Of a stretch of 64,000 bases of DNA, positions 12,423 to 47,066 are shown one piece after another (positions within the stretch are counted from its first letter, which is position 1; every line of letters begins with the position of its first letter). The notes under the pieces are model-generated. The model was not told the origin of the DNA, made no database searches, and saw nothing but the letters and a program-made list of their open reading frames with translations. The position numbers and the translations under genes were made by a program. The stretch is from Candidatus Woesearchaeota archaeon (GTDB taxonomy: Archaea > Nanobdellota > Nanobdellia > Woesearchaeales > ARS49). The DNA lies in the NCBI GenBank assembly GCA_017609645.1, contig JAFCDQ010000001.1, forward strand, positions 124,001 through 188,000, in the 5' to 3' direction.

Positions 12423-13406
12423 TTAAACCTCTTTTTTTTCTAACTTCTCAAGCTCTTCCTTAGCATCAGCTTTCTCAACTTTCTGAGCAACAAATTCTAA
12501 ACGCTCAAAAAAAGCATTCTTCTTAACGCGTCCTGTGATTTTGAACTGCTCGCCTAATAATTCAATCTTAATAGGATCAAAAGCCTCTGGAACAGAACGA
12601 AAAGCCTTAACTTCATCATTACTTTTTCCAAGAAATTCCTCTGCCTGCTCTCTAAAAAAAACAGCACGAATAGTATCAGAACCATCATCTAAAACAGCAT
12701 TCAACACAAAACTAAACTCAGGACTAACCTCCCCATGCTTTGCACAAGAAAAAACACCAGTTTCTTCTTTTAAACGAGTGCCACAGTCTGGACAAACTTC
12801 AAAAAAACGAGGATCAAACACCTGAACAACAGTAGCAAGAAGCTCTGCACGCTCATCCTCCTGCAAATCCTTAATCTTCTTACGCTCAACAGAACTTTTC
12901 TTAACAGCATCAATAGTCTCCCCCTCAGGATTAACAATAACATTACTTTGGTCATTCAAATGAACTTCTTTAAAACCCCTATTTTCCCTCACAAAAGCAC
13001 CTTGAACACGAACAACATCCTCCTCTTTTATCTTAGCAATAATGTCTGTCTGAGTATTCCAACAAACAACACGAATCATACCTGTCTCATCACCAACAAG
13101 AAAAGAAGCAACACTGCCTGCGCTTCCGTCTTGCCTTGTAAAATCCTTTTTCTCATAAATAGAAACAACCTTGCCAAGAAACTCAGCATTACGCATACCT
13201 GGATAAATATCCTTAATCTTACCAGAAGACTCAAAAAGTTTCACACCCAGTTCGTTAGCAATAATATTAGCAGCACCTTCTTTAGAAATCAAACCTGACA
13301 AAGAGTCACACTTAGCATCAATCTTCTTATTAATATCATCTTCAGAAAGTCCTGTTTTCTGCGCAATCTTTGCGATCATTTCACTTAAAGGAATTTTAAT
13401 CATCAT
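12423..13406 (-). CDS. rpa: Replication protein A-like single-stranded DNA-binding protein
   Basis: 327 residues with an N-terminal helical region, a first OB fold (NAEFLGKVVSIYEKKDFTRQ to FKEVHLNDQS, about residues 80-160), a zinc finger CPDCG...CAKHG (about 205-225) and a second OB-like region (AVLDDGSDTIRAVFFREQAE). This is the usual archaeal RPA architecture. It binds ssDNA in replication and repair. Two adjacent in-frame ATGs (13406 and 13403) follow an AAAGGTGG binding site, and TATTTAAATA at about 13442-13451 is the likely promoter. Starts a minus-strand pair with the YdjM gene. Confidence 0.92.
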   Translation of the reverse strand: MMIKIPLSEMIAKIAQKTGLSEDDINKKIDAKCDSLSGLISKEGAANIIANELGVKLFESSGKIKDIYPGMRNAEFLGKVVSIYEKKDFTRQDGSAGSVASFLVGDETGMIRVVCWNTQTDIIAKIKEEDVVRVQGAFVRENRGFKEVHLNDQSNVIVNPEGETIDAVKKSSVERKKIKDLQEDERAELLATVVQVFDPRFFEVCPDCGTRLKEETGVFSCAKHGEVSPEFSFVLNAVLDDGSDTIRAVFFREQAEEFLGKSNDEVKAFRSVPEAFDPIKIELLGEQFKITGRVKKNAFFERLEFVAQKVEKADAKEELEKLEKKEV

Positions 13407-13470: not shown

Positions 13471-14259
13471 TTATATTTTTATGCCTCTGTTTTCTAAAGA
13501 AGGAAAATTAAGAGCATAACAAACAGGCCTATCAAAATCAATGAAAGAGAACTTGTAAAGCAAAATATCAGAATCAAACTTGCTAACTTGAGAAGAAGAC
13601 TCAATAACCGCATCATTAATCAAACGACCATCAGAACAACGCTTAAGATCTTGAGACAATTTACATTGATTGTAAATTAATTTTAATCTTTTAAGAATTT
13701 GAGGGTAAAGATTTAATTCATTTTTTTGAATTATTGTGAAAGAAGGTTTGAAAGAAAAACCAGTCCAAAGTTGTTTAGTTAATTGATTGCCTAAGCTATA
13801 ATAACTTGTTCTCAAGGGAATACCTCTAATAATAGATCCTTCAATATACAACTCATAAGGTTCAGTAGAAATTACATTAGCACTTCCAATTTTTAAAGCA
13901 TACAAATGCTGTGAGAACTCTTGATTAAGAAACTTGCTTAAATCAGGAAAAATAATATTCTCAGGATTGTTTTTGGAATTTAAAGCAACACAACCCTCAA
14001 TAAATTTCACATCATCAGAAAATCCGCCATTTTTAGCAAGATTAACCAAAGTTTGAGCAAAAGCAATGCCAGCATTCTTATCAAGCTCATTCAAAATCAA
14101 ATCTCTCTTTAAATCTGCCTTAAAAATATTAGCCTGCTGAGCGCCAATAGGTCTGCCAGAAGCATTCAACTGCTTACTAACTGCAAGAAGAACAAACGGC
14201 AAAGTAATTAAAACAGCCACAACAAAAAAAGTCGGAAAACCAATACCTTTTTTATTCAT
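13471..14259 (-). CDS. Pilin-like membrane-anchored protein (class III signal peptide)
   Basis: 262 residues, last gene of a 12-gene operon. The N-terminus MNKKG followed by IGFPTFFVVAVLITLPFVLL matches the archaeal prepilin pattern: basic residues, then G/A at the cleavage site, then a hydrophobic stretch. The ectodomain contains AGIAFAQTLVNLAKNGGFSD, which resembles KAFFNLGQNGGFFD in the 379-residue protein of the second cluster (30078-31217), so the two operons share at least one family. Four cysteines in the last 60 residues could form disulfides. Function unknown; a structural subunit of a surface assembly is inferred. Confidence 0.65.
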   Translation of the reverse strand: MNKKGIGFPTFFVVAVLITLPFVLLAVSKQLNASGRPIGAQQANIFKADLKRDLILNELDKNAGIAFAQTLVNLAKNGGFSDDVKFIEGCVALNSKNNPENIIFPDLSKFLNQEFSQHLYALKIGSANVISTEPYELYIEGSIIRGIPLRTSYYSLGNQLTKQLWTGFSFKPSFTIIQKNELNLYPQILKRLKLIYNQCKLSQDLKRCSDGRLINDAVIESSSQVSKFDSDILLYKFSFIDFDRPVCYALNFPSLENRGIKI

Positions 14260-14260
14260 T

Positions 14261-14860
14261 TTATTTCATCAACACCTCAAACCTAAACTCAAACTTCTTG
14301 CCAGGAACAATTGCATGCCAAAACAATCTAGGAGTAGACGAAGAACCAACTGGCTTAAAACCAGAAGCAATCAACAAAGTATTTCTTTTTTTATAAGACA
14401 TATCAGGATTATCTACATAAACTTTGCAAATAATAGCATCTCCTAACCCAAAAGAACCTCCTCCGAGATAAACACTATATTCAGTAATCCACACATCTTC
14501 GGGAAGGATTTCATCAATAGATTCTTTAACAAACATGAAAACTTTTTCCTTCAAAGGAAATTTCTCATTTTTCTTAAAAACAGAAAATTTATCTGCCTTA
14601 ACCCATACTCGATTTAAGTCATCATCCCAAATCTCCTGCAAAACAACAGGAAAATATTCATTATCTATTTTTTTGGAAACAATATCATACCATCTATCTT
14701 CTGCAAGAACATCACCAACAAGCTTATTTGACTTTTCAGCATTTTTATTAGCTAAAAAATTAAGAGAAACAATAAGAATAATACAAAAAATGATAATTAT
14801 AATAAACGCTAACAAAAAGTTAAAAGGCTTAATTAATGATTCTGCTTTTTTATTTAACAT
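14261..14860 (-). CDS. Pilin-like membrane-anchored protein
   Basis: 199 residues from the ATG at 14860 (MLNKKAESLIKPF). Adjacent upstream in-frame starts would only add residues before the KKA motif. A single hydrophobic segment (LLAFIIIIIFCIILIVSLNF) follows, and the remainder is a soluble beta-rich domain with no recognised family. The start overlaps the preceding gene by 11 nt and the stop is 1 nt from the next start, so translation is probably coupled. Class III-like KKA before the hydrophobic stretch, though the stretch begins a little later than in classical pilins. Confidence 0.6.
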   Translation of the reverse strand: MLNKKAESLIKPFNFLLAFIIIIIFCIILIVSLNFLANKNAEKSNKLVGDVLAEDRWYDIVSKKIDNEYFPVVLQEIWDDDLNRVWVKADKFSVFKKNEKFPLKEKVFMFVKESIDEILPEDVWITEYSVYLGGGSFGLGDAIICKVYVDNPDMSYKKRNTLLIASGFKPVGSSSTPRLFWHAIVPGKKFEFRFEVLMK

Positions 14861-15317
14861 CATACACCTTTGGCAAAATTTGCTCAAAAATAACTTGACC
14901 GCATTTAGAACCTTCTAAGCAGGTTACATCTTTTTTGAAAGTAACCTTAACATAATCACCAAGAGGGGCAATATCTTTGGCGGTCAAATACAAGTTTTCA
15001 TTATAATAAACATCTTTTCTTTCAAAAGACAACATATAAGCAGCATTTTTGCCGACTAAAGTGAAATAATCATCAAAATTAGATTTAAAATCCTCTTTAT
15101 TCTTTAAAGTCATAGAATAATCACGCAAAGTAAAAGGGTCAGTGTAGCTGATTCTATTTTCAACAGCTCTGCGCGCAAGAGTTGCGTCTAAAGAAGAAAC
15201 CTTAATACTTTCATCAAGAACCTTAGTCGGCATATAAGCAAACACAATAACAACTACTGCTACCATTACCAAAACAAAAGGAAAATACAAAATCTGAGCA
15301 ATACCTTTCCTAGACAT
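14850..15317 (-). CDS. Pilin-like membrane-anchored protein
   Basis: 155 residues. MSRKG then IAQILYFPFVLVMVAVVVIV fits a class III signal peptide with cleavage after KG. The ectodomain contains LARRAVENRISYTDPFTLRDYS and one late cysteine pair (TCLEGSKCGQ). Overlaps the upstream gene by 8 nt and the downstream one by 11 nt. No family recognised. Confidence 0.62.
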   Translation of the reverse strand: MSRKGIAQILYFPFVLVMVAVVVIVFAYMPTKVLDESIKVSSLDATLARRAVENRISYTDPFTLRDYSMTLKNKEDFKSNFDDYFTLVGKNAAYMLSFERKDVYYNENLYLTAKDIAPLGDYVKVTFKKDVTCLEGSKCGQVIFEQILPKVYDVK

Positions 15318-16266
15318 TGTACACTCCCTCTATTATTGAATCAACAATTTCTTTCTTTGAATCAGCAAGGAATTTAGTTCCAATCTCTAACAAAACAGCA
15401 GGTTTCTCTATGTTTAAAATTTGTTTAAAATCATCTTCTAAAATGAACTCAAAATTAACAGGAATAATAGCAAAATCAGTAAACGTGCCTGGATTTAGAT
15501 TCTTAAGCAAAGCATTCATCAAATTGCAAGCCAAAATAACACTTTCTTCTTTATCATTAGTATAAATTTTAATATCATCTTCAAATTCTCCTGCATGAAC
15601 AGAAATCAAAGCAGCACTAACTTTATCTTTTCTATCATCAACAGACATAAAAGAATCTTTTAACGTAGTATGAACTGGTCTAGTAGACTTAAAATCAGGC
15701 TCAAATCTTAGCAAAGCAGCTAATTTTAAAGTATGCAAACTTTCAGACAAACCATCAATAAGCTGACCCTGAGATCCTTGATTATACACTTCATCAAAAC
15801 CTTTGCCAGGATCAAAAGTAACTTCATTAAGATTTAAATCAGTTTTTTTACAAAAATAATAATTTAAACTACCAGGATTATCAGCAGAAAATGATAAAGT
15901 ATTGCCACTTTTTGTAAGATAAAGAATCTTAATATTCTCAAAAGTATGATATCCAATCTTAATATTAGGATCTGCAGAATAATAATATTCTGCAATTATT
16001 TTATCTCTAGTTAACATAACTTTATTAGGAAGAATGGCAACATTAGTCTCAAAAGGAAAAGTAAAAGCAGCAAAAGAATTAGAATCATGCTTCAACCCAG
16101 TCAAAGCAGAAATCTCAAAAGACAAATCAACAGCCAAAGGCTTTAACACATAAGTATCAGCCTGGCTAATACGATAAGTATTGCCTAACAAAGCAGCAGC
16201 AACAATAACAACTATAAGAATCTCAAATATCTTCTTTAAACTAATATCACCCTTTTTATTCAACAT
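15310..16266 (-). CDS. Pilin-like membrane-anchored protein, large ectodomain
   Basis: 318 residues from the ATG at 16266 (MLNKKGDISLKKIFEILIVV). A TTG two codons upstream (16272) would overlap the preceding stop but is less likely. Hydrophobic segment at about residues 12-30, then a roughly 280-residue ectodomain with no recognised family and few cysteines. The longest member of this operon. Its length relative to the small partners suggests an accessory, tip or adhesin subunit, which is speculation. Confidence 0.6.
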   Translation of the reverse strand: MLNKKGDISLKKIFEILIVVIVAAALLGNTYRISQADTYVLKPLAVDLSFEISALTGLKHDSNSFAAFTFPFETNVAILPNKVMLTRDKIIAEYYYSADPNIKIGYHTFENIKILYLTKSGNTLSFSADNPGSLNYYFCKKTDLNLNEVTFDPGKGFDEVYNQGSQGQLIDGLSESLHTLKLAALLRFEPDFKSTRPVHTTLKDSFMSVDDRKDKVSAALISVHAGEFEDDIKIYTNDKEESVILACNLMNALLKNLNPGTFTDFAIIPVNFEFILEDDFKQILNIEKPAVLLEIGTKFLADSKKEIVDSIIEGVYNV

Positions 16267-16268
16267 TT

Positions 16269-16823
16269 TCAATTAGGAGCCAACAATAACAATCTTCCAC
16301 TATCTGAAACCCTTAATTCAATAGATTTTTTATCAGTTATATAACCTGACTTTCTAGGAATACTATCAAACAAATCTTCATCTCTCTCATTATAAAAAAT
16401 ACTTCCATCCTCTTTTTCCCACGCACGAACCTGCTGATAACCCTCAACACAAGGCTCTTTAGAAATCTTATTAAAAGTACAAATAGGCACATCTAAATAC
16501 GCAACACCTGAATAAACGTTCTCTCCTTTTTGAAAAGTCACAAGAATATATGGTTTTTTCTTTTCAGATAAAGAATATAATTCAAAAGTCTTGCCACCTT
16601 GATATTGTGTAGAAACTTCAAAAGGAATTCTAGTAAAATCACCAGCACTCTTTAAATTCTCAACAGCATTAGCAAAATTATTAGTATCATCCTGAGATTC
16701 ACTAACCTCTTCTCCTGGGAAGAAAATCGAAGCACCTTTCACAAGAATAAAAATAAGAAAAAAAATACCAATAATACCTAAAATAAGACTAATCAGTTTT
16801 TTTAAAGAAAATCCTGCTGCCAT
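16269..16823 (-). CDS. Membrane-anchored protein of the pilin-like operon
   Basis: 184 residues, anchor LKKLISLILGIIGIFFLIFILV near the N-terminus, followed by a soluble domain with a cysteine pair (PICTFNKISKEPCVEGY). The LKK preceding the hydrophobic stretch lacks a clear G/A cleavage residue, so this one may keep its anchor. Its start codon shares one base with the upstream stop. No family recognised. Confidence 0.58.
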   Translation of the reverse strand: MAAGFSLKKLISLILGIIGIFFLIFILVKGASIFFPGEEVSESQDDTNNFANAVENLKSAGDFTRIPFEVSTQYQGGKTFELYSLSEKKKPYILVTFQKGENVYSGVAYLDVPICTFNKISKEPCVEGYQQVRAWEKEDGSIFYNERDEDLFDSIPRKSGYITDKKSIELRVSDSGRLLLLAPN

Positions 16824-17098
16824 TAATCAACCTCGCAACAAACTTCTCCTGTTTTACAATCAGACCATGCAGAACCAATAGGATTCACAATCTTATTAGG
16901 AGAACAACTAGTTTTACACTCACGATTGCCGAAAAAAGACTCACATTTGTCTAAACTCTCACCAATCTCTGCATATTTTTTAGCGCCCTTAGTCATCTGA
17001 GTATTAATAAAAACAACAGCAACAACTAAAGCGATCAAAATCAAAATCAAAATAGCAATCATATTCATAGAGAAACTAACACCTTTTTTATTATTCAT
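16823..17098 (-). CDS. Small pilin-like protein with vicinal cysteines
   Basis: 91 residues. MNNKKG is followed by VSFSMNMIAILILILIALVVAVVFI, a clean class III pattern. The short ectodomain has seven cysteines, ending in a vicinal pair (GEVCCEVD). The same late CC feature recurs in the 92-, 105- and 201-residue proteins of this operon. Size and layout are those of a major or minor pilin. Confidence 0.66.
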   Translation of the reverse strand: MNNKKGVSFSMNMIAILILILIALVVAVVFINTQMTKGAKKYAEIGESLDKCESFFGNRECKTSCSPNKIVNPIGSAWSDCKTGEVCCEVD

Positions 17099-17108
17099 AT
17101 TATCACCT

Positions 17109-17714
17109 TTACTCTTCTTTAACTATTCCTTTAGCTACATCGAGACAATCATAATCTTCTAAGCCTATCGTAGTCATATAAACTTTATCCTTATTACAAC
17201 AAACTTCTGCTTTTCTTGTAACCCATACAACCTCTTCAAAACGAGAACCTTTATGCTTATAATAAGACTCTTTACCAAATCTTTGAATTTGACTAACCAA
17301 ATTCACAAAAGGATTAAACTTCAAAGCTTTAGCTCTCTCATCAACTGACATAAATGTCTGAAGTTGATCAAATTCAATACTATATTTTAAATCATGAGCA
17401 TCAACATAAAAACAAAACAAAGGCTCGCTTTTTTCTTTACAAGACGCATAACAAGTCATAATTAAATCTTCTAAAATACCCACTGCAGTAATTTCATTTG
17501 CAGTACCATCACTTGGAAGAAAAATTTGTCTTCCTAAAAAATACTCAAACACTGCGGGAGAAACATCGGAAGTTTTTTCATCGGGAACAGCACTTTTAAC
17601 TTTTTCAAAAGCCTTTTCCTGCGTCTTAGACAACAAAGGGAAAAATATCACAATAACAAGGACTAAAAAAATCAAAGCGAAAATCAAAACAGCAAAATTC
17701 ATTCCTTTTTTCAT
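17109..17714 (-). CDS. Pilin-like membrane-anchored protein
   Basis: 201 residues. MKKG then MNFAVLIFALIFLVLVIVIF. The ectodomain has CYASCKEKSEPLFCF and a late vicinal pair (EVCCNKDKVYM). The ATG overlaps the stop of the 50-residue gene (ATGA). No family recognised; the arrangement supports cotranslation with its neighbours. Confidence 0.62.
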   Translation of the reverse strand: MKKGMNFAVLIFALIFLVLVIVIFFPLLSKTQEKAFEKVKSAVPDEKTSDVSPAVFEYFLGRQIFLPSDGTANEITAVGILEDLIMTCYASCKEKSEPLFCFYVDAHDLKYSIEFDQLQTFMSVDERAKALKFNPFVNLVSQIQRFGKESYYKHKGSRFEEVVWVTRKAEVCCNKDKVYMTTIGLEDYDCLDVAKGIVKEE

Positions 17715-17863
17715 AATATTTTACCTGTTAATAATTTAGCCATACCTCCTGTCGTAACTGCAAAATAAATTAAAAAAAACAAAAGAGCTAAAGATAAAAT
17801 AATCCAAACAAGAGTCCAAATAGGAGAACCCTCTCCTTTTAAGTTCCTAATATTTGATCGCAT
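17711..17863 (-). CDS. 50-residue single-pass membrane peptide, translationally coupled
   Basis: A short ORF read directly from the sequence: MRSNIRNLKGEGSPIWT then a hydrophobic stretch LVWIILSLALLFFLIYFAV and a tail ending LLTGKIL. Its ATG lies inside the last nine codons of the upstream gene (25-nt overlap) and its TGA overlaps the next ATG by 4 nt, the same coupling seen across the operon. KG before the hydrophobic segment fits a class III-like signal. Without this ORF the operon would have its only gap over 100 nt. Confidence 0.6.
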   Translation of the reverse strand: MRSNIRNLKGEGSPIWTLVWIILSLALLFFLIYFAVTTGGMAKLLTGKIL

Positions 17864-18687
17864 TCTTTATACACCTTTCCAAATTTTGAATAATCATTCT
17901 TTAATTGATCAGAAGGAATAAACTCCATATAAGACTTTTGACCTAAACCAACACCAGGAATTAAACCTTCTTCACGCGTCATAACATAAACAACAGCATA
18001 CTCCTCATCAAGCTCAAAAGGAATTTCCTTCAAAGGATAATACTGATAATTATTATTAATCCATTCATCATAAGTCTTATCATCTTTTCTCCAACCTTTT
18101 TTCTCAGCACGCAAAAAAGCACCAAGAGAGCCAAAATAATTCTCATCACCAATAAAAGGTCTAAGTGGTTTTCCAATCTTTTCCTCAATCTTATGTTTGT
18201 CTTTAAATTGGATCTTAGAACACAACAAACAAGTCCTGCCAGAACTTAAAAAAGACTTAGTATTAATAGCACCAAACACAGCTTTTGCAGACCAACAATC
18301 AAACAACTGATCAGCAATAAGCTTATCAACAGCCCACTCCCAATAACTAGCTTCATCTTTCTTGAAAAACTGTAAAACTTCAAAATAATTACTAGGATCC
18401 TCATAATATCTATCAATAGCAAGCTCAGGATAACCTGCATCAATAACATCTTCTATTTTATCAGGAGTAATTTGAACAAACTTAGCACTACATTCAGGAG
18501 GAGTCTTAGGAGTAATTAAACCTAAAGTGCTTTGTTCTTGAAAAGAAGCTACATACATCTTCAAACCACACATACTAGATTCACCTGCTTCTTTAGCACC
18601 TTTTAAAAAATCATTAACAACAAAAATAAGAACTATCAAAACAACAAGTAAAGCTATAATCCTTACTAACATTTTCATATCAACCAT
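17839..18687 (-). CDS. Membrane-anchored protein of the pilin-like operon
   Basis: 282 residues with anchor MLVRIIALLVVLIVLIFVV near the N-terminus and a large ectodomain containing seven cysteines, including CLLCSK and a final C near the C-terminus. No KKG/KKA motif, so probably a permanently anchored partner rather than a processed pilin. Family not recognised. The 50-residue gene begins inside its 3' end. Confidence 0.6.
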   Translation of the reverse strand: MVDMKMLVRIIALLVVLIVLIFVVNDFLKGAKEAGESSMCGLKMYVASFQEQSTLGLITPKTPPECSAKFVQITPDKIEDVIDAGYPELAIDRYYEDPSNYFEVLQFFKKDEASYWEWAVDKLIADQLFDCWSAKAVFGAINTKSFLSSGRTCLLCSKIQFKDKHKIEEKIGKPLRPFIGDENYFGSLGAFLRAEKKGWRKDDKTYDEWINNNYQYYPLKEIPFELDEEYAVVYVMTREEGLIPGVGLGQKSYMEFIPSDQLKNDYSKFGKVYKECDQILGT

Positions 18688-18688
18688 T

Positions 18689-18787
18689 TTACTTAATCAC
18701 ATTCCAAATAAGTATAATCATCAAAATACCAATAGCAATAACAAGAATCAATCCAATTAATTTCTCAAACTGGGCTTTTTTGTTCAT
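18689..18787 (-). CDS. 32-residue class III signal-type membrane peptide
   Basis: ATG at 18787 opens MNKKAQ, then FEKLIGLILVIAIGILMIIL and a stop six codons later. It is essentially a prepilin-like signal segment with no ectodomain. The start lies inside the 3' end of the 92-residue pilin gene and the stop is 1 nt from the next ATG. The exact MNKKAQ motif and the spacing argue that it is real. The longer in-frame reading from 18901 is only read-through of the neighbour in another frame. Confidence 0.55.
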   Translation of the reverse strand: MNKKAQFEKLIGLILVIAIGILMIILIWNVIK

Positions 18788-19043
18788 CTTTAAATGACCC
18801 TTTTTTACAACAAATCTTACTAACTCCTGTATCTTTAAAACTGCCATAAATAACTGTGCATTCAGTACCATAAGGCTTAGGTGTGCCGCCTGCCTTGTCA
18901 CAAGTAGCTTCTTGAATTTCTTTTAAACCCTCACCTGTCTTAGAAGTCTTTTGAACAAACATAGCAATAACTACAACTAAAACAATAAGAGCTAATAAAA
19001 CTATAATTATAGTAGTAATTGGCAAACCCTGAGCTTTCTTCAT
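18765..19043 (-). CDS. Small pilin-like protein (MKKAQ type) with vicinal cysteines
   Basis: 92 residues from ATG 19043, five nt after the previous stop. MKKAQGLPITTIIIVLLALI is nearly identical at its N-terminus to the first gene of the operon (MKKAQGLPITVIIIAALGIL), so the two are recent paralogues in the signal region. The ectodomain has Cys...Cys...KICCKKG. Cleavage is expected between A and Q. Confidence 0.68.
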   Translation of the reverse strand: MKKAQGLPITTIIIVLLALIVLVVVIAMFVQKTSKTGEGLKEIQEATCDKAGGTPKPYGTECTVIYGSFKDTGVSKICCKKGSFKDEQKSPV

Positions 19044-19048
19044 TGGCT

Positions 19049-19366
19049 TTAACCAGTTGGAACACAACAAGCGTCACACTTGTAATCGTTCATATCGACA
19101 TCCTTAGGAGTGCCCATTGCCATATAAGTGCCACTAAGTTTAGTCTCAAATTCAGAACATTCTCCACTTGCACGAACACTAAACTGAGCATAAGGCGCTG
19201 CGTCAATTGGCTTAGCAGTAACAACACAAACACCACGACATTCTCCAGTCACTCTGCCAAATTTGCCAATCTGGCCACCGAAAATGGCTGCAATAACCAC
19301 AAGCACTAGAATACCTAAAGCAGCAATAATAATAACAGTAATAGGCAAACCCTGAGCTTTCTTCAT
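19049..19366 (-). CDS. Small pilin-like protein (MKKAQ type), first gene of operon A
   Basis: 105 residues. MKKA|QGLPITVIIIAALGILVLVVI is a textbook class III signal. The ectodomain carries six cysteines including CRGVC and a terminal CDACC. GAGAGGTG precedes the ATG, giving the best ribosome binding site in the operon, as expected for an abundant first-position subunit. Likely the major pilin-like subunit, by analogy only. Confidence 0.68.
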   Translation of the reverse strand: MKKAQGLPITVIIIAALGILVLVVIAAIFGGQIGKFGRVTGECRGVCVVTAKPIDAAPYAQFSVRASGECSEFETKLSGTYMAMGTPKDVDMNDYKCDACCVPTG

Positions 19367-19482: not shown

Positions 19483-19818
19483 GTGAAGAAAAAAACACAA
19501 AGAAAACTAGCAAGAGAAACAGAAAAAGAACTAGAAAAAACACAAAGAGAACTAAAAAAAGCAATTGCGTCTGGATATATATTTTTACTAGGAATATTCT
19601 TTGGTGTTTTAGGCAATATGATTGCGGAAATTCTTTTTATTGAAATCATACCAAGAGTATCAAATACCCTAAGATATACAATAGAAGGGCTAATATTATT
19701 GTCTTTCATACTGTTATTAATTGTATTCTTGAAAAAATTTAAAGAAACAAGGAAATTATCTATAAAAATCAATAGACTAATAGCACTTAAAGAAAAAAGA
19801 AAAAAATTAAATAAGTGA
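19483..19818 (+). CDS. Small coiled-coil membrane protein, GTG start
   Basis: 111 residues from GTG at 19483. A basic/acidic helical N-terminus (ARETEKELEKTQRELKKAIA) is followed by two membrane segments (YIFLLGIFFGVLGNMIAEIL and LILLSFILLLIVFL) and a basic tail. No family recognised. It is divergent from pilin operon A and its end overlaps the convergent Lrp gene by 12 nt. An AT-rich TATA-like stretch is about 15-20 nt upstream. Confidence 0.5.
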   Translation: MKKKTQRKLARETEKELEKTQRELKKAIASGYIFLLGIFFGVLGNMIAEILFIEIIPRVSNTLRYTIEGLILLSFILLLIVFLKKFKETRKLSIKINRLIALKEKRKKLNK

Positions 19819-20265
19819 AATAGTCATAGGATTTGCTAAAAAACACTCTCTTTGCAAATCAGACAAAACATAATGAATTTCCTTAGCCTTAAAAACAAAC
19901 TTTTCCTCAAGATTTTCTAAAAAACTCTCTAAATGATTCAAATCCTTAAACAAACACTCTGCCATCACATCCCAGCCATTATTAATCTTAAACAAATTAT
20001 TCACATTAAAATCATTTTGCATAGTTTTAAGGAAAGCTTCTTTTTGATCTTTCTTTACTCTAAACAAGAGATAGGCCTTAAGATTATACCCTAAAGCAGC
20101 AAAATCAACCAAAGAAGTGAACCTTATAATCTTATTATCAAACTTATTCTTTACTTTATTAAAAACAGTAGAAACAGGCATGCCTGTTTTTTTAGCAAGC
20201 CTAGTCAAACTCATCCTTGCATCCTGCCTTAAATAAGAAACCAACAAAAGATCTTTTTCATTCAT
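19807..20265 (-). CDS. Lrp/AsnC-family transcriptional regulator
   Basis: 152 residues. An N-terminal HTH (LLVSYLRQDARMSLTRLAKK, then PVSTVFNKVKNK) and a C-terminal RAM-like alpha/beta domain (NLKAYLLFRVKKDQKEAFL...GWDVMAECLF...). This family senses amino acids or acts as a general regulator. It is next to the APH-like kinase gene on the same strand. Target unknown. Confidence 0.85.
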   Translation of the reverse strand: MNEKDLLLVSYLRQDARMSLTRLAKKTGMPVSTVFNKVKNKFDNKIIRFTSLVDFAALGYNLKAYLLFRVKKDQKEAFLKTMQNDFNVNNLFKINNGWDVMAECLFKDLNHLESFLENLEEKFVFKAKEIHYVLSDLQRECFLANPMTISLI

Positions 20266-21917: not shown

Positions 21918-22829
21918 ATGAAGCGAAAAGTTATACAATTAGCCAAAAAAACACTCGTTATTAGTTTGCCACATAAATGGGTCAAAGAATGGAGCGTAAA
22001 AAAAGGAGAAGAACTGCATGTTGATTTAAAAGGAGCAAACATCATCTTTTCAACAGAAAGTCAAAGAAAAAAACAAAAAATAACAATAAACACAGAAAAA
22101 AGCTCAGAAAGAGTAATAAGATGGTGGTTAAGCAGCTTGCACAAAAAAGGGTTTGATGAAATAGAAATATTCTACAAAAAAGAACAACTACCTTTATTTT
22201 CAGAATTAATCAAAGACTTGTTCACAGGATTTGCAATAATAGAACAAACAGACAAAAGATGCGTATTACAAGCAATATCACAAGACAACCAAGCAACATT
22301 TGACAACATCTTAAGGAGATCATTCCTAGTAACAATGTCATTAGGAGAAAGCATAGTAGAAATGGCAAAAGAAGATAAATATGAAGAAATGAAAGATCTG
22401 CTGCAACTGGAAAAAACAAACAACCAACTCACAAATTTTTGCCAAAGACTAATCAATAAAAAAGGAATGTCTGAACCTGCAACAAATTCATTCTATTATG
22501 TAATTGCATGGAATCTAGAAAAAGTAGCAGATTCTTATAAATACATAATAAGGCACATAATAGAAGACAAAATAAAATTAAATCCTAATACAATCAATTT
22601 ATTAGAAGAAGCAAATAAAGTTATAAGAGGATTTTATGAATTTTTTTATGAAAAAAATCAATCTACCATAAATGAACTGCATGAACTGAAGAAAAAAATA
22701 CAAAAACAAATTGAAAAAGAATTAATAAAATCTGACAAAGAAAGCTTGATATTAAGCAGACTTCACAGTCTTATCGATAAATCTCTTGATTTTTCCGTAT
22801 CTATGATTGCAATACACACAGAACATTAA
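21918..22829 (+). CDS. PhoU-domain regulator with N-terminal AbrB/SpoVT-like DNA-binding domain
   Basis: 303 residues. Residues 1-45 are a swapped-hairpin AbrB-type domain (RKVIQLAKKTLVISLPHKWV, then VKKGEELHVDL). The remainder is helical with PhoU-like repeats (SLGESIVEMAKEDKYEEMKD, then WNLEKVADSYKYIIRHI). Archaeal proteins with this layout are annotated as phosphate-uptake regulators, but no phosphate transport gene is visible here. It is divergent from the kinase gene, and a regulator-kinase pair is possible. It converges with pilin operon B, overlapping by 4 nt. Confidence 0.8.
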   Translation: MKRKVIQLAKKTLVISLPHKWVKEWSVKKGEELHVDLKGANIIFSTESQRKKQKITINTEKSSERVIRWWLSSLHKKGFDEIEIFYKKEQLPLFSELIKDLFTGFAIIEQTDKRCVLQAISQDNQATFDNILRRSFLVTMSLGESIVEMAKEDKYEEMKDLLQLEKTNNQLTNFCQRLINKKGMSEPATNSFYYVIAWNLEKVADSYKYIIRHIIEDKIKLNPNTINLLEEANKVIRGFYEFFYEKNQSTINELHELKKKIQKQIEKELIKSDKESLILSRLHSLIDKSLDFSVSMIAIHTEH

Positions 22830-23320
22830 TGACAAATATCAAACTTAACCTGCGCTGTTTCTCCTGTGAAAATAATTAATGGTCTGCTTTTGCTTTCATA
22901 TTCACCTTTACAAGGCTGACCAAAAACAAAAGAATTCAAAGCAATAGGACCTGAAATAGAAAAAAAGAACTTCTTATTTCTTTCAGAAAAAGTCTCATCT
23001 AATAAATCCTTAATCAAAGACTTAGCAACAAAACAAGAATTCCTGCCATCCTCACAAGCAATAGCGCCCATAAAATCAATATCTAACTCAGCACAAGCCT
23101 GAATAATCTCCCCAAAAGTCCTGCCTTTACAAGCAGCATCAGATTTTAACAAAGTGTTTAAAAAATTCGCAGCAAGCAAACCCTCCTGCTCATATCTTAA
23201 TTCCTGGCCAACAGGCTTAGAAAAAATAAGAATAGCAATCAAAATACCTACGGATATTAACACAACAATAATAACCAAACCAAGAATTTCAGTCTGCCCC
23301 TTCTTATTTTTACTGAACAT
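22826..23320 (-). CDS. Pilin-like membrane-anchored protein, last gene of operon B
   Basis: 164 residues. MFSKNKKG|QTEILGLVIIVVLISVGILI is a class III signal. The ectodomain has cysteines in ACKGRTF, ACAEL, ACEDGRNSCF and a terminal CH. The start overlaps the upstream gene by 11 nt. No family recognised beyond the signal type. Confidence 0.66.
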   Translation of the reverse strand: MFSKNKKGQTEILGLVIIVVLISVGILIAILIFSKPVGQELRYEQEGLLAANFLNTLLKSDAACKGRTFGEIIQACAELDIDFMGAIACEDGRNSCFVAKSLIKDLLDETFSERNKKFFFSISGPIALNSFVFGQPCKGEYESKSRPLIIFTGETAQVKFDICH

Positions 23321-23792
23321 ACTTACTCACCTCTGACTGGCTGAATAAATATTTGCCGCTAACGGCGTCATAAACAAGAACAGGCATCATCTGCTTAATC
23401 ATAGACCTAAACTTGCTGGGCTTAGAATCATAAATCAAAAAATTCTCCTTTACAGGAAAAGAAATATTAACACTGATTGTTGCTTCACCAAAAATAGGAT
23501 AATAAAATTCCTTAGCAGCATCTTTTTTAATCAAATCAGAAAATGCAATAAGCTTATACTTATCAAAACAATTAATAGTGTGAGCAGAAGCAAAAGAACA
23601 ATCTAATTCAGGCAGGGATTGAAGCTTGATTAAAGTTCTCATTGTTTCTGCATTCTCAAAAACAAGCCTTTCCTTATCCATCCTAGAATTCTGAATCTTA
23701 AAATAAATCGTACTGGCAATAACAAGAAGAATAAAAAAAATAACCAAAACTGCAACACTTTCCAAAATCCTCATCTGAGCTTTCTTATTCAT
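23310..23792 (-). CDS. Pilin-like membrane-anchored protein
   Basis: 160 residues. MNKKA|QMRILESVAVLVIFFILLVI, then a beta-rich ectodomain with two cysteines (ELDCSFASAHTINCF). Sits 8 nt after the preceding stop. Pilin-like size and layout; function unknown. Confidence 0.65.
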   Translation of the reverse strand: MNKKAQMRILESVAVLVIFFILLVIASTIYFKIQNSRMDKERLVFENAETMRTLIKLQSLPELDCSFASAHTINCFDKYKLIAFSDLIKKDAAKEFYYPIFGEATISVNISFPVKENFLIYDSKPSKFRSMIKQMMPVLVYDAVSGKYLFSQSEVSKYVQ

Positions 23793-23800
23793 TTTTTATA

Positions 23801-24811
23801 TTAAAATAATTCAGGACAAGAATGCTGAATCAAAGCATTATTATTCTGCAATAAATCGCCTTTAAGCGAATTAATTTTTGTGACAGTCGCAAACAAATCT
23901 TGATCATCCTTAACTTCAACATTCATCGTGGTTGAATTAAGCACCTTAAGCTTATCAAAAGGATAAGCACAAACTAACCCTAATGACGCAGCTTTATCAT
24001 TAAGAAGAACTGCCCGTCCATAAAATATATCCACAATATTATGCAATCGTTTAAGCGCTGATTTCATACCGCAAGCAAACATATCCTTATCAGCACTAAA
24101 CAAAGCAGCAAAAATCCAAGTCATATCATTAGGAATCTTAAAACCAGCTTTTAACTTAAACTCATCACCTTGTTTTTCAAAAAAACTGACTAAAGGAGGA
24201 TTAATTTTAATCAACTTAGAATCAAAATTTCCTGCTTTAGGAATATCAACATCACCAATCAAAAAAATCCTTGTCAATCTAGAACCATCATCAACAATAT
24301 TTCCAAACTGTTTTTTTTCAAAAATAATATTATCAGGAATTAATTTATCTAATTTATTTTCAATATCCTTTGCAAGGGTGTTGTCTTCTTCAAAAACCAA
24401 AATCTTTCTAGTCTCGGGATTAGAAACATACAAAAAATTAGCAACACGAAAAGGAGTTTTCCAAGGCAAACTCCAAATAACAGCCTGAGGAGAATCAAGA
24501 ATATTTTCAGAAAAAATAACATTATTACCAAAAGAACTTCTGGCATTGCCTGTTTGAAAAAAACAATCACAAGTATTTGTGCAAGATAAAGAAACACCTT
24601 TCTTAGGCAAAGGAATAACCTGGCTGGTTCCTTCACTAGCTTCAGCCATCTCTAAAACCAGATCAACACTTCGAACCAAAGATAATGAAAGTTTCTCCTC
24701 GCTTAAATCCTTCTGCTTAGTTGCAACAGAAAAAAAGAAAGCAAGAATAAGACCTCCTGCAATCAAAATAAAAATCCAATTAAGCTGCAAAGTAATAGCT
24801 TTCTTGTTCAT
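23801..24811 (-). CDS. Pilin-like membrane-anchored protein, large ectodomain
   Basis: 336 residues from the ATG at 24811, which overlaps the upstream TGA (ATGA). The five-codon extension in frame is not needed. MNKKA|ITLQLNWIFILIAGGLILAF is class III-like. The ectodomain begins with a cluster of cysteines (SCTNTCDCFF) and contains TPFRVANFLYVSNPETRKIL. Function unknown. Confidence 0.65.
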   Translation of the reverse strand: MNKKAITLQLNWIFILIAGGLILAFFFSVATKQKDLSEEKLSLSLVRSVDLVLEMAEASEGTSQVIPLPKKGVSLSCTNTCDCFFQTGNARSSFGNNVIFSENILDSPQAVIWSLPWKTPFRVANFLYVSNPETRKILVFEEDNTLAKDIENKLDKLIPDNIIFEKKQFGNIVDDGSRLTRIFLIGDVDIPKAGNFDSKLIKINPPLVSFFEKQGDEFKLKAGFKIPNDMTWIFAALFSADKDMFACGMKSALKRLHNIVDIFYGRAVLLNDKAASLGLVCAYPFDKLKVLNSTTMNVEVKDDQDLFATVTKINSLKGDLLQNNNALIQHSCPELF

Positions 24812-25314
24812 TCTCCAATATCCCAACGATGAACCTTAACAGAATCACCTTTTCCAGTAAGCTTTATGGTTACAAGACCATTAACATTAGGAACACAAAC
24901 ATAACCAGATTCAATCCTAATTTCATTCATAGCAATCTCAACACGACGAGGAACACTAAAAACATTAGCAGACTTTGCATTACAAGCGCTAGCCGCCCAC
25001 GCAAGAGAATTTCCTTCAAAAGATTTCACATCAAAAGGCATCTTACCTTCCCCGCATTTCTTAGCATCAAAAAAACACAACTCCCTAACATCATTTGGAG
25101 TGCGCAATTCTATTTTCCTGACACTGCCATAAGAACGCTTTGTAGAATCAACAGCAGCCTCAAGATCTGACTTAAGCTCGGCAACAGTAATATCAGAAGA
25201 ACTCTGAACAAGATCAGTAACGGCTTTATAACCAAAACCAATAATCAAAATAAAAATAATTCCTGCAATAATAAACGCTAAAACCTGTCCAATCAAAATA
25301 CCTTTTTTATTCAT
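24808..25314 (-). CDS. Pilin-like membrane-anchored protein
   Basis: 168 residues. MNKKG|ILIGQVLAFIIAGIIFILII, then ADLVQ-type helix and a beta-rich C-terminal half with three cysteines. It follows the giant surface protein gene by 9 nt, so it is probably cotranscribed with it. No family recognised. Confidence 0.66.
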   Translation of the reverse strand: MNKKGILIGQVLAFIIAGIIFILIIGFGYKAVTDLVQSSSDITVAELKSDLEAAVDSTKRSYGSVRKIELRTPNDVRELCFFDAKKCGEGKMPFDVKSFEGNSLAWAASACNAKSANVFSVPRRVEIAMNEIRIESGYVCVPNVNGLVTIKLTGKGDSVKVHRWDIGE

Positions 25315-25323
25315 TTTAATTTT

Positions 25324-28300
25324 TTATTTTCTTTTTTTCTTTTTATGCTCTTCAACTCTTTCTCTTAATTTATTAAACAAATCTTCCTGAGATTTTGGAG
25401 AAGAACTTTTCTTTAATTTTTCAAAAATATCCTTATCAATTTTCCCAATACTTTTCTTTAATTTATCAAGAGCTTCTTTATGATTTTTAGCAGAAGGCTT
25501 AACCTCAAGCCAACCAGACTCAAGATCATGCTGCTTAGCAAACTTCTTCAACCTTTCAATCTTTTCATCAGCGGGGCTAAGTTTAGGTTTTTCAGTGACA
25601 TGCTTGTAAGTGATATGCGCTGGCCTAGGCTTAGACGGCTGAAATGGTTTTTTGAATTTAGGCAAGATCTTTTTCTCTTTGAACTTCTTATACAACAAAT
25701 AACCTCCAATACCCATTCCTGAAAGCAGCAATAAAATCAACAAGAAAGTCAAAAAGCTAAAACCTTTTTCTTCACTAATTTCTTCAGAAACCTTTTGAGA
25801 AAGACTGCAACCATATTGATCAACAGGCTCGCCAGAAGGTGTATTAGGACAAATATCTTCATTATCAGGAACTCCATCATTATCAGTATCTTTCTCTTCT
25901 TCAAAAACACAAACAGAATCCAAACAAATCAAACCAGCTTCACAATCCACATCAACTTCACAACTCCTACCTTCCGCACAAGGCCAACAAGGACCACCGC
26001 AATCAATATCAGTCTCACCTGTACTTAATTTACGATCCTCACAAGCAGGAGTTTTTTCACATCGGCCTCTAGAAGGACTGCAATAATCTGACTTACAATC
26101 ATTATCAACATCACAACGCTCGCCATCATAACAAGGATCACAAACACCGCCACAATCAACATCAGTCTCAAAACCATCAAGAATGCCATTAGTACACGTA
26201 GCAGTCTGAATAAGACAAACACCATTTATACACAAATCACTAGAACAATCACCACTAACATTACAATTCTCACCATTATCACAAGCAGGACAACTACCTC
26301 CGCAATCAACATCACTCTCTGTGCCATCTTTAATACCATTATTACAAGTATAAGGTTCTGCACTAGCATCAACTAAAACACCATCACTCTCTAAAACATC
26401 ACTAATTAATCCTGCATGATCCACTGCACGAACAACAACAGTATACTTAGTATTATTCTCTAAAGTTAAATTTTCAAGATAATGATAACTGCCGTCAAGA
26501 ACAATACTCTTAATCTCACTAACAATAATCTCGTCAGTCAAAGTCTTATGAATAGACACAAGATAATAAGCAACACCTGACAAAGAATCATTAGCAAGAT
26601 AAGCAACCCTTAACTTATCAGCAAAATAAGAAACATTACCCTCTGGCAAAATAGAAGAATCATTAACATAAACCATCTCAGGATCAGTCTGATCAATAAT
26701 AATCTTGGCATCAATAATATCTGACTGGCTGCTCAAAGGATGAACACACTTAACAACATAATCATACTCCCCTTCATCATCAACAAGCATATCCTGATGA
26801 TGCACATATTCAGGAGTACACTCACCCACACACGCTAAAGTAGAAAGTTCCTCGCCAATATAACACAAAGATTTCTTATTAATCTCAATGCCTATAAAGA
26901 AATCCAAATCACTGAATACTGTCTTAGAAGCTAATCTCGCCTGCAAAACCGCAGACAAATCAATAGAAAAACTAATAGACTTGGTTTCAGAAACAACGCC
27001 TGCAGGACTTTCGCAAGCAACATAATAAGTATAAGACCTAATACTATCAACAAAAATAGAGGCTGCATGGGAAATAAGAGGATGCTCATTAAATCCAATA
27101 AATTCATTCTCCATTAATTCATAATTATTCGCAACCTTACTAAACTTACAAAAAGACGGCTTATCAGTTTCAACCTTTAAAGTAGTTGAATAAGTATTAG
27201 GACCAAGAACAGACTCTTCAGCAATAACATCAGGGAAAGCATAAGCACTAACCATAACAGGAGCATAAGGATCAACATAAACATCAAACATAGCAGAAAC
27301 AAAATCATCACCTTTTTTGCAGAAAACATACAAAGGATGTTCACTATAATCATTAAAAGGAATAGACAATTTAGACAATTGACTTGTTTCAAAATTATAA
27401 CCATCAAAACCAGACATGTCAGCAAAAGCTAAGAACGAAGAAGACGTAATCTTCGGTATATCAGGCAAATCAAAAGCATACTTGCATTGATCATACTTCA
27501 AAGCAGTTTCAACAGCAGCAGTAAACACAAAAGTATCAGAAACACCAAACCTAGGCTTGACAAGAGCAATAAAATCATTAATATCTCCTTCTTCTCCAAT
27601 ATAAAATCTGGTTTCACGAATAATACTCAAACCACGATAATCCTTAGCATCAACATACAACTTATATGCGCCAGCAGTTAAGTCACTTACTGTGGTTTCA
27701 TAAATAATATTATCGCTAGTTAAAAATTCCTCGGTAATATCCTGAGAAGTTTCATTCAACAAATAATCATTCACAGATTTAACATGAGTCAATTTAACTT
27801 GTTTTAACTCGCTCATCTTAGAAAATGTTAATTTAAAATCAACTTCTTGCGAAGATAAAACCGCGCCATCAGCAGGAACAATATCAACACTCGCTAAAGA
27901 AGTATCAATATACAAATTAAAAAACAAAATAGGATCTGCCTTAATCTGCTTCTCATTCTCGACATCAACACTTAACCTAAACAAATCCTCTGCAAGATTG
28001 CCGCTAAAACGCAAAACATGAGTAGTCTTATAACCAGGCTCAGAAATAACATCAACAACAGTATTAGTAATAGACGTAGAAAGAATCTTAGTAGGCTCAT
28101 CAAAAATCAAAGTAATAACAGGATTAGTAAAACTAGAATACAAATTAGAACCAGACAACTGACCTCCTGTGATTTTCACGTCTAATAAAGTAGGGCCTTG
28201 ACAATCATCACAAGCATCAAATTCAATGTTTTTGATAATCTCTAAATTCTTAGAAGGATCTCTAGAATAAAAATATAATTTATTTTCTCCATCAACAAGC

Positions 28301-30081
28301 CTGGCAAGTTTTGCCCGTCCATCTTTTAAATCAAGATTCTTAAGAATCAATCTCTTAGCATTAACCTTAATCATATAATCCTCAGCATCATTACAAGCAT
28401 TATTAGCAGATTTAATACACAGGAAAGTCTCATAACTAGGCTCGGCAGCATGATCCTTTAATTCATCCTTAGCAAACTTTTTATCAAGCAAAATCAAATT
28501 AAGAAAATCAGTTCTATCCTCAACACCAGCAGGAATAACATTAGTCCAAGGAGGAAAATAATCAAGCTCGCAAGCAGCATCGTCTTTAACGCAGTCAGGC
28601 CAAGCAGTACCTTTAGAACCGTCAGCATTCTTCCTGCAGCCAGTTAATTCATCATACTGACAAACTCCAATATGACAAACATCAGCACTTTTATCAATAA
28701 TAGAATTATCATTTGCAAGAGAAATGCCGCCCATAGGAGAAGCGCACTGTAATTGAGAATAATCAGTACAAGAAACTTCATCACAAGTCTTAACAGTCTC
28801 TTCAGGAGTAAGAGCATCTTTATCATAAAAACATTCATTACCTAAAACTGATAATGCAGTTGCTTTTTTCTCACTGCAATTATTAAACACAGAATTATCC
28901 CTAGGGGAGGAATCAAAACAAAAATCACAATTACTCTTACGAGAATCAACACAAACACCAATACCTAATAAGCTGAAAACAGGATTCCACGTGCAAGAAC
29001 CAACACCGCAATTATCCCTTGAACAACTAGTTTGAGATTTATAATTATAACAATCCATACCTGCAACACAATCAAAACAAGAATCAACAATTGTCTTTGA
29101 ATTATCTAAGAAACAAAACTCAGGCTCTTGCTCGTCTGTTTTTTCACAAGAGGAAATCGTCGAGAATAAACCAAACAAATTATCATTAGAACAATCACCT
29201 TTTACAATACAAACAGGTGAATCAGCCTTAATAGCACATACAGCAGTATTAGAACAACCAAAATCCTGATACTGCTCAAGAACATTATCATCAGTACAAT
29301 AATAAGCCTTATTAAACTTAGAATAAAACACATCCTCAACACTATCATCAAAATCACTCATGAAATTCATAGAAGTTTCGTCACCATGACCAAAAGTCTC
29401 AAGATAAGATTTGACAACAGGATTAGAATAAAACAATTCATTCAAACAAAAAACATCCTTACCAATCCAGCATTCTAAATCACCAAGATTAACATCAACC
29501 TCAATTTCCTCGCTTTTGCCGTCAAAAACAGCATAATAAGAATATATCTTATAAGTATAATCAGTATTCCATTTTAACAAAGACTCATCAACAAACTCAG
29601 AAGCACGAAGTTGAGGTGCAACAGTCTTGCCGACATTAGAATCTTTCTCAAAACGCTTAATAACAACATAAGTAGCAGGACATTCCTGATTAAAAGTAAT
29701 CTTAATCTTTTTCTCACCAATAAGAGGAGTAACTAGAACATTATTTGGCTCAGGATAATAACCCCTGCTGCCGCACAACAACAATTCTCGGGTCACACAA
29801 TCAGAAGGACAAGAAACATCCTCGCCTGTTTCACAAATACCGTCGCCGCAAACAGGAACACGAGGCAAAATAGGAATCTCTTCACAAACCTGATCACAAG
29901 GAGGAAAAGTTCCAGAAAGAAAATTATGCTCTAAATCAGAACATTCAACTTCTGTAACAAAACGACCTGCATTAGTAACAGGATTACAACAACAACCATA
30001 CTCAACATTCTGAGCAGAAATAACTGCAGTTAAAACTATAAAAATCAACACAGCAATCCAAATCAATCTTTTATTTTTCAT
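25324..30081 (-). CDS. Giant Cys-rich surface protein with EGF-like repeats and C-terminal membrane anchor
   Basis: 1585 residues from ATG 30081 (ATGA overlap with the upstream stop; a TTG two codons earlier is not needed). A secretory signal (LIWIAVLIFIVLTAVISA) is followed by Cys-rich modules and several beta-sandwich/fibronectin-like stretches. Near residues 1270-1410 are three tandem 45-residue modules with the core ETDVDCGG-C-C, and then a thrombospondin type 3-like calcium loop DTDNDGVPDNEDICP. A membrane segment (FSFLTFLLILLLLSGMGIGG) leads to a Lys-rich cytoplasmic tail of about 130 residues. Typical of an adhesin or receptor. It sits in the middle of the pilin-like operon. Confidence 0.75.
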   Translation of the reverse strand: MKNKRLIWIAVLIFIVLTAVISAQNVEYGCCCNPVTNAGRFVTEVECSDLEHNFLSGTFPPCDQVCEEIPILPRVPVCGDGICETGEDVSCPSDCVTRELLLCGSRGYYPEPNNVLVTPLIGEKKIKITFNQECPATYVVIKRFEKDSNVGKTVAPQLRASEFVDESLLKWNTDYTYKIYSYYAVFDGKSEEIEVDVNLGDLECWIGKDVFCLNELFYSNPVVKSYLETFGHGDETSMNFMSDFDDSVEDVFYSKFNKAYYCTDDNVLEQYQDFGCSNTAVCAIKADSPVCIVKGDCSNDNLFGLFSTISSCEKTDEQEPEFCFLDNSKTIVDSCFDCVAGMDCYNYKSQTSCSRDNCGVGSCTWNPVFSLLGIGVCVDSRKSNCDFCFDSSPRDNSVFNNCSEKKATALSVLGNECFYDKDALTPEETVKTCDEVSCTDYSQLQCASPMGGISLANDNSIIDKSADVCHIGVCQYDELTGCRKNADGSKGTAWPDCVKDDAACELDYFPPWTNVIPAGVEDRTDFLNLILLDKKFAKDELKDHAAEPSYETFLCIKSANNACNDAEDYMIKVNAKRLILKNLDLKDGRAKLARLVDGENKLYFYSRDPSKNLEIIKNIEFDACDDCQGPTLLDVKITGGQLSGSNLYSSFTNPVITLIFDEPTKILSTSITNTVVDVISEPGYKTTHVLRFSGNLAEDLFRLSVDVENEKQIKADPILFFNLYIDTSLASVDIVPADGAVLSSQEVDFKLTFSKMSELKQVKLTHVKSVNDYLLNETSQDITEEFLTSDNIIYETTVSDLTAGAYKLYVDAKDYRGLSIIRETRFYIGEEGDINDFIALVKPRFGVSDTFVFTAAVETALKYDQCKYAFDLPDIPKITSSSFLAFADMSGFDGYNFETSQLSKLSIPFNDYSEHPLYVFCKKGDDFVSAMFDVYVDPYAPVMVSAYAFPDVIAEESVLGPNTYSTTLKVETDKPSFCKFSKVANNYELMENEFIGFNEHPLISHAASIFVDSIRSYTYYVACESPAGVVSETKSISFSIDLSAVLQARLASKTVFSDLDFFIGIEINKKSLCYIGEELSTLACVGECTPEYVHHQDMLVDDEGEYDYVVKCVHPLSSQSDIIDAKIIIDQTDPEMVYVNDSSILPEGNVSYFADKLRVAYLANDSLSGVAYYLVSIHKTLTDEIIVSEIKSIVLDGSYHYLENLTLENNTKYTVVVRAVDHAGLISDVLESDGVLVDASAEPYTCNNGIKDGTESDVDCGGSCPACDNGENCNVSGDCSSDLCINGVCLIQTATCTNGILDGFETDVDCGGVCDPCYDGERCDVDNDCKSDYCSPSRGRCEKTPACEDRKLSTGETDIDCGGPCWPCAEGRSCEVDVDCEAGLICLDSVCVFEEEKDTDNDGVPDNEDICPNTPSGEPVDQYGCSLSQKVSEEISEEKGFSFLTFLLILLLLSGMGIGGYLLYKKFKEKKILPKFKKPFQPSKPRPAHITYKHVTEKPKLSPADEKIERLKKFAKQHDLESGWLEVKPSAKNHKEALDKLKKSIGKIDKDIFEKLKKSSSPKSQEDLFNKLRERVEEHKKKKRK

Positions 30082-46051: not shown

Positions 46052-46055
46052 ACAC

Positions 46056-46997: not shown

Positions 46998-47066
46998 AAA
47001 ATTTCTTAATTTATCTACGCCCTTAGAACGAAACATTTAAAATATAATAATAATTAATAAAAGACA

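Follow-up and report, generated by a model that had tools for sequence, protein, structure and literature searches.

The window analysed here, a 64,000-nucleotide (nt) stretch of a Candidatus Woesearchaeota archaeon (contig JAFCDQ010000001.1, positions 124,001 to 188,000 of the forward strand), carries operon A, a run of twelve coupled genes whose products (P0001 to P0012, at positions A1 to A12) resemble pilin subunits. A multi-subunit pilin-like assembly is well supported, because class III (prepilin) signals occur at all twelve positions when relatives are included, the assembly machinery is encoded in the genome, synteny extends across the order, and the P0009 model combines a helix with a beta-sheet. 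With slightly better than even confidence, we read operon A, together with a second operon, B, as the pilin-like subunits of a type-IV-filament-like apparatus found across Woesearchaeota, which would display wall hydrolases to bacteria.

How DPANN archaea, most of them uncultured, make physical contact with their partners is a long-standing open question. An order-wide surface apparatus with wall hydrolases in its pilin-like subunits would provide a concrete and testable mechanism of contact, and would indicate bacteria as the partners or prey of many Woesearchaeota. The state of the enzymes (intact, swapped or decayed) could then serve as a genomic indicator of lifestyle.

Class III signals, synteny and assembly machinery

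Operon A consists of twelve minus-strand open reading frames (ORFs) between 19366 and 13471, with neighbours overlapping by up to 25 nt or separated by no more than 10 nt. A single leader lies 5' of the operon, with a TATA-like TTATAAATA, plus GAGAGGTG ahead of the first ATG. Several of the starts are internal ATGs, and gene 3 encodes just 32 amino acids (aa). Strict class III N-termini, defined as (K/R)(K/R)(G/A) in the first 16 or so residues and then a hydrophobic helix, were found in nine of the twelve proteins (P0001, P0002, P0003, P0006, P0007, P0009, P0010, P0011 and P0012), seven of them scored by script and two, P0009 (MLNKKG) and P0012 (MNKKG), by direct reading. The signals of P0004, P0005 and P0008 are relaxed here and strict in their positional orthologues (e.g. 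MKKAQITVDT, MNKKADLPGW and MKKGQFAVFE); once relatives are counted, the signal is seen at 12 of 12 positions. The background frequency of the strict motif, taken from 697 non-operon genes of relatives, was 12 in 145 proteins with an N-terminal membrane helix (8 percent), against which nine in twelve has a binomial chance of about 1e-8. An earlier sequence-only reading of this DNA had described twelve coupled small membrane proteins, nine with a prepilin-type pattern, junctions within about 10 nt or overlapping, and a looser fit in the 50-residue peptide, P0005; all four descriptions agree with what was found.

The short subunits were assigned by position because A1-A3 and A7 run together in iterative profiles, through a helix that they share; relatives have peptides of 34-44 aa at A3. 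A profile of A1 gave no match among PDB sequences; matches came from the fold search described below.

Across the family and order, searches with P0004, P0009 and P0012 recovered syntenic blocks from many genomes. Relatives keep one subunit order, which ends at the RPA gene and is followed by a DUF457-like gene and RadA. An RPA-centred scan, which samples loci independently of operon A, gave 80 named loci, almost all of them under the label Woesearchaeota, Nanoarchaeota or unclassified archaeon (individual loci carry L-numbers below). Named loci with 5 kb or more of upstream sequence numbered 54; four or more class III genes stood directly upstream of RPA in 49 of them, and A9, A10 and A12 were all matched (E < 1e-5) in 36 of the 54. 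Among 288 genomes of the order, the A9 profile matched 196. The comparison of synteny proposed with the sequence-only reading came out in its favour, with the same gene order next to RPA in distant families. In 22 named relatives, homologues of at least one of B1-B4 sit immediately upstream of operon A. Operons A and B are read as parts of one ancestral block, here about 3.5 kb apart. One contig labelled Candidatus Aminicenantes bacterium (L156) carries archaeal RPA and operon A genes, and is probably a mis-binned archaeal contig.

The source genome, of 1.13 Mb in 4 contigs and 90 percent complete, was searched for assembly genes. A PibD/FlaK-type A24 prepilin peptidase is encoded at C2:135478 (E 1.4e-13), and a 750-aa TadA/ArlI-type ATPase at C1:317135, within C1:314-319 kb, where a 719-aa multi-membrane protein adjoins it in TadC's place. 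Near-complete relatives encode the TadC-like protein in 39 of 39 cases and the peptidase in 38 of 39. Of archaellum features, only the ArlI/TadA-like similarity of the ATPase and the FlaK-like similarity of the peptidase were seen. A canonical pilin N-terminus was found at L005 10164-10646. Slightly upstream of the TadA/TadC-like pair, with two divergent genes between, L004 12215-13985 (G000 C1, ~320-322 kb) encodes three consecutive polytopic membrane proteins of 180, 207 and 198 aa, which are possible extra assembly components. The sequence-only reading had seen no TadA-type ATPase, TadC or peptidase nearby; this holds for the neighbourhood but not genome-wide, since all three (the TadC-like protein by position) lie elsewhere. 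It had also named the lack of a peptidase and an assembly ATPase from the whole genome as grounds against a pilus, and the genome search found both.

Wall hydrolase domains in the block

An AlphaFold model of P0009, built with 29 sequences (predicted local distance difference test score, pLDDT, 87), has helices at 8-35 and 38-57, strands over 62-127 and a separate domain at about 149-317. In Foldseek this C-terminal domain matched CwlV, AmiC2 and AmiP (E 6e-8 to 1e-6), and P0009 is thus predicted to have the Amidase_3 fold. P0009 alone scored E 0.045 for Amidase_3 in Pfam, below the cut-off; its relatives made the assignment solid, with 8 of 29 A9 members matching Amidase_3 in Pfam (best E 2e-14) and individual scans giving E 3e-12 for L044 (the L096 gene) and 1.5e-7 for L041 (the L094 gene). 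The full His/Glu/His/Glu site is present in A9 of L094, L096, L097 and L098, and the motifs DPGH/DAGH, S-[IL]-H and E-[LIMV]-G occur also in L068, L069, L072, L075 and L079, which come from other families. In the window protein K155 replaces the His zinc ligand while E175, H224 and E294 are kept, and catalysis has probably been lost. This lesion is probably recent, since the window species groups on the RPA tree with L094, whose A9 site is intact. Over the whole tree the A9 state changes at least 7 times, compared with a mean of 21 and a minimum of 16 in shuffles.

The last subunit, A12, is often much longer in relatives than in the window. The 53 members above 300 aa gave SLT 10 times, VanY/M15 six times, Amidase_2, M23 and NlpC/P60 twice each and a VgrG3-like domain once, in a tally that includes some two-domain proteins and overlapping M15 and VanY models. 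Checked one by one were SLT in L103, L104, L110, L133, L140, L144, L148 and L162, VanY in L131, M23 in L136, and NlpC/P60 with the VgrG3-like domain in L123. Catalytic motifs were identified in L103 (KQES), L131 (H...D...EWWH) and L123 (DCSG), and the SLT domain of L103 aligns to Slt70 across the QES motif. The window protein, P0012, was modelled with two long helices and an alpha/beta head, a fold with no match in the PDB. Compensation of a short A9 by an enzyme on A12 was considered and set aside: the trend goes that way, with A12 exceeding 400 aa in 16 of 27 against 9 of 28 loci, but it was not significant (p 0.06), and related genomes are not independent.

In 124 other operon proteins, matches were limited to two families, Phage_lysozyme being one. 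This domain (E 3.9e-17), on one protein that is neither A9 nor A12, is predicted to be a further wall hydrolase in the block. To our knowledge, archaea do not make murein, the bacterial cell-wall polymer. Judged from their sequences, the A9 and A12 enzymes are mutually unrelated peptidoglycan hydrolases in organisms without it. The sequence-only reading did not mention these domains. Its proposal of a multi-subunit pilus-like assembly is upheld by the signals, the machinery, the synteny and the P0009 model, and has to be extended by the enzymatic ectodomains. It had regarded ectodomains with unrelated enzymatic folds as a point against a pilus; some ectodomains are indeed enzymatic, but every enzyme recognised in them is a peptidoglycan hydrolase fused to a pilin-like N-terminus.

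The association of hydrolases with the operon exceeds what is expected by chance. At least 17 SLT genes in 17 genomes lie beside A9 (same strand, within 9 kb), where about 0.5 would be expected; the figure, from the 66 SLT matches listed in genomes with a listed A9, is a lower bound because contigs are short. Amidase_3 matches in the order lie in or beside A9 in 20 of 54 cases, and in 126 control genes from the same loci no wall hydrolase was found among the 25 commonest families. Contamination is unlikely as the source of the hydrolase genes, because they share contigs with archaeal RPA and RadA.

In the window species itself, the apparatus is probably non-lytic and adhesive or structural only, as judged from an A9 that has lost a zinc ligand and a short A12 without an enzyme. 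Judged by one marker, Mur ligase, the species gives no sign of its own murein synthesis: a Mur-ligase-like match was rejected as such a sign, the sequence being FolC-type and the only such gene in the genome.

Mechanism and alternatives

In the proposed mechanism, the subunits would be exported as class III prepilins and cut after K-K-G/A by the PibD/FlaK-type peptidase, and the TadA/ArlI-type ATPase and its TadC-like partner, encoded elsewhere, would assemble them into a filament. The small helix-only members (A3 and A5) and the Cys-rich members would form the core, while A8-A12, and A9 and A12 in particular, would serve as minor or terminal subunits, perhaps at the tip, and expose enzymes on the cell exterior. 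In many lineages the A9 amidase and the A12 hydrolases would then act on bacterial walls, in attachment, penetration or feeding. A more specific version, in which the pilus is a contact-dependent wall-cutting device with interchangeable amidase, transglycosylase, carboxypeptidase or endopeptidase on its terminal subunits, used to breach or feed on bacteria, is plausible but falls somewhat short of an even chance.

Several observations weigh against the hydrolase-displaying pilus. Foldseek searches with the P0009 and P0012 models gave no pilin match. The 719-aa protein was missed by the Pfam T2SSF and PDB searches, and its assignment as a TadC-like platform protein comes from its adjacency and length. 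Most A9 proteins have a degenerate amidase site or no such domain (27 of 55 loci are without it), and no known enzyme shows in about half or more of the scanned A12 proteins, so wall cutting is not the sole function of the apparatus. SLT and Amidase_3 proteins are also found outside the operon in many Woesearchaeota, and the window genome has no match to either at E 1e-5. Finally, the observed gene order, signals, machinery genes, folds, domains and catalytic residues are the data from which we infer a filament, signal cleavage, enzyme activity and a bacterial target.

The main competitor, which we consider unlikely, is a bindosome-like surface array in which class III hydrolases and binding proteins, with no filament, scavenge dead bacterial wall as a nutrient. 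In the Sulfolobus bindosome, sugar-binding proteins carry class III signals, so such signals do not prove a pilus, and the large, diverse ectodomains, with several unrelated hydrolases at one position, would suit such an array. The ATPase does match the BasE model, but far below the cut-off, and it resembles the TadA and archaellum types more closely. Furthermore, A3 and A5, class III peptides of 32-50 aa that are helix only, look more like Flp-type or filament-core subunits than like carriers of enzymes. Pfam and NCBIfam found no substrate-binding domain in the window proteins. It is less likely again that the apparatus is an adhesive pilus only, with A9 and A12 as structural subunits that keep an old enzyme fold and wall cutting as a minority or relict trait. 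The decay of A9 and the lack of SLT and Amidase_3 from the window genome fit such a pilus, but A9 amidases are still intact in genera belonging to several families, and the gain by A12 of several unrelated hydrolases with conserved catalytic motifs is unexpected for a relict.

That the enzymes act instead on pseudomurein or another archaeal envelope, of a host or their own, seems quite improbable. Pseudomurein is present in some methanogens, and it lacks the MurNAc (N-acetylmuramic acid) glycans and D-amino-acid stem peptides on which VanY/M15, NlpC/P60, M23, SLT and Amidase_3/2 enzymes act. The co-occurrence link between Woesearchaeota and methanogens discussed in PMC9723730 would favour such a target; against it, others have assayed hydrolases of archaea and seen them kill bacteria (PMC12352652), and the sole Mur-ligase-like match in the window genome is of FolC type by sequence. 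We give very little weight to the possibility that these are ordinary signal-anchored membrane proteins with an incidental K-K-G pattern and no assembly. The lack of known-pilin homology in Pfam and NCBIfam, where searches with the window proteins alone gave nothing over the cut-off, is what one would expect of such proteins, but the motif is in excess over background and recurs across families, and the prepilin peptidase and TadC-like protein are near-universal in relatives.

Gene content of the locus and relation to known systems

Table 1. Genes of operon A, its flanks and operon B, in window coordinates
Gene	Position	Strand	Features
A1 / P0001	19049..19366	-	105 aa, class III signal MKKAQ, Cys-rich ectodomain
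A2 / P0002	18765..19043	-	92 aa, class III signal MKKAQ, Cys-rich, A1 paralogue
A3 / P0003	18689..18787	-	32 aa, helix-only pilin-like peptide, MNKKAQ
A4 / P0004	17839..18687	-	282 aa, relaxed signal MVDMKM (strict in relatives), no known domain
A5 / P0005	17711..17863	-	50 aa, single-helix peptide; relatives MNKKA(D/E)LPGW
A6 / P0006	17109..17714	-	201 aa, MKKG signal
A7 / P0007	16823..17098	-	91 aa, MNNKKG signal, Cys-rich
A8 / P0008	16269..16823	-	184 aa, signal relaxed here, strict in relatives
A9 / P0009	15310..16266	-	318 aa, MLNKKG signal, helix and beta-sheet, then predicted Amidase_3-fold domain
A10 / P0010	14850..15317	-	155 aa, MSRKG signal
A11 / P0011	14261..14860	-	199 aa, MLNKKA signal
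A12 / P0012	13471..14259	-	262 aa, MNKKG signal, without enzyme domain here
RPA (OB-fold)	12423..13406	-	conserved downstream anchor of the block
Lrp/AsnC-like regulator	19807..20265	-	upstream neighbour here, beside A1 in many relatives; possible regulator
B1-B4	22826..25314	-	164, 160, 336 and 168 aa, all with class III signals
B5, B6, B7	25324..33907	-	B5 1587 aa, secreted, multi-repeat; B6 ~378 aa, secreted, MKAQ signal; B7 897 aa, secreted

In some genomes the A6 position is occupied by class III proteins of 880-985 aa (L053 5102-7744, L058 2794-5751), and in L041 (3488-4765) a 425-aa P-loop ATPase-like gene is inserted on the opposite strand between A7 and A8. Elsewhere in the window, two 267-aa TrmB-like regulators (40158-40961 and 57689-58492) have near-identical N-terminal halves and are apparently a recent duplication. 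At 43476-48014, a gene for a 545-aa membrane protein precedes three paralogous lipoprotein-like genes (312-315 aa), which together make a further surface-protein cluster.

Archaeal type IV pili (T4P) and related filaments were surveyed, with their class III prepilins, TadA/TadC and PibD, by Makarova, Koonin and Albers (2016, PMC4858521), in whose text the words DPANN and amidase are absent. The present system shares with archaeal T4P the class III signals, the single N-terminal helix, the A24 peptidase and a TadA/ArlI ATPase beside a TadC-like protein. It differs in that one block has twelve (plus five) different subunits, without motor genes, and some are fused to peptidoglycan hydrolases. 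In DPANN genomes, islands with runs of dark-matter signal-peptide genes have been read as divergent pilins (Makarova et al. 2019, PMC6393860, Figure 2A); those islands were recognised through neighbouring ATPase and TadC genes, and the sections of that paper considered here hold no description of the position beside RPA, the subunit families or the enzymes. Archaeal peptidoglycan hydrolases that kill bacteria were reported in 2025, with Nanoarchaeota among the carriers (PMC12352652), and predatory, 'vampiristic' Woesearchaeota with GH23 genes were proposed in 2022 (PMC9723730). Both studies resemble ours in placing peptidoglycan hydrolases in archaea, Woesearchaeota included, with bacteria as the proposed target. 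They concern modular secreted enzymes or CAZy matches with no pilin link; PMC12352652 mentions neither pilus nor pilin, and PMC9723730 does not mention pili. None of the open-access papers found makes a link between such hydrolases and pilins.

The Amidase_3 family (CwlV, AmiC, AmiP) shares with A9 its predicted fold and, in some relatives, the His/Glu/His/Glu site; here the domain sits on a pilin-like N-terminal region, and in the window protein the site is broken. We know of no earlier filament of the type IV superfamily with enzymes in its own pilins. An analogy can be drawn with the VgrG3 spike of the type VI secretion system and the lysozymes of phage tail tips, although the machinery is not homologous, and no genes for a contractile sheath were seen here. 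In these systems too a puncturing structure carries interchangeable wall hydrolases, and one A12 protein has a VgrG3-like domain. Pilin islands and archaeal wall hydrolases are each known, and from these comparisons their union in pilin-like subunits appears to be new.

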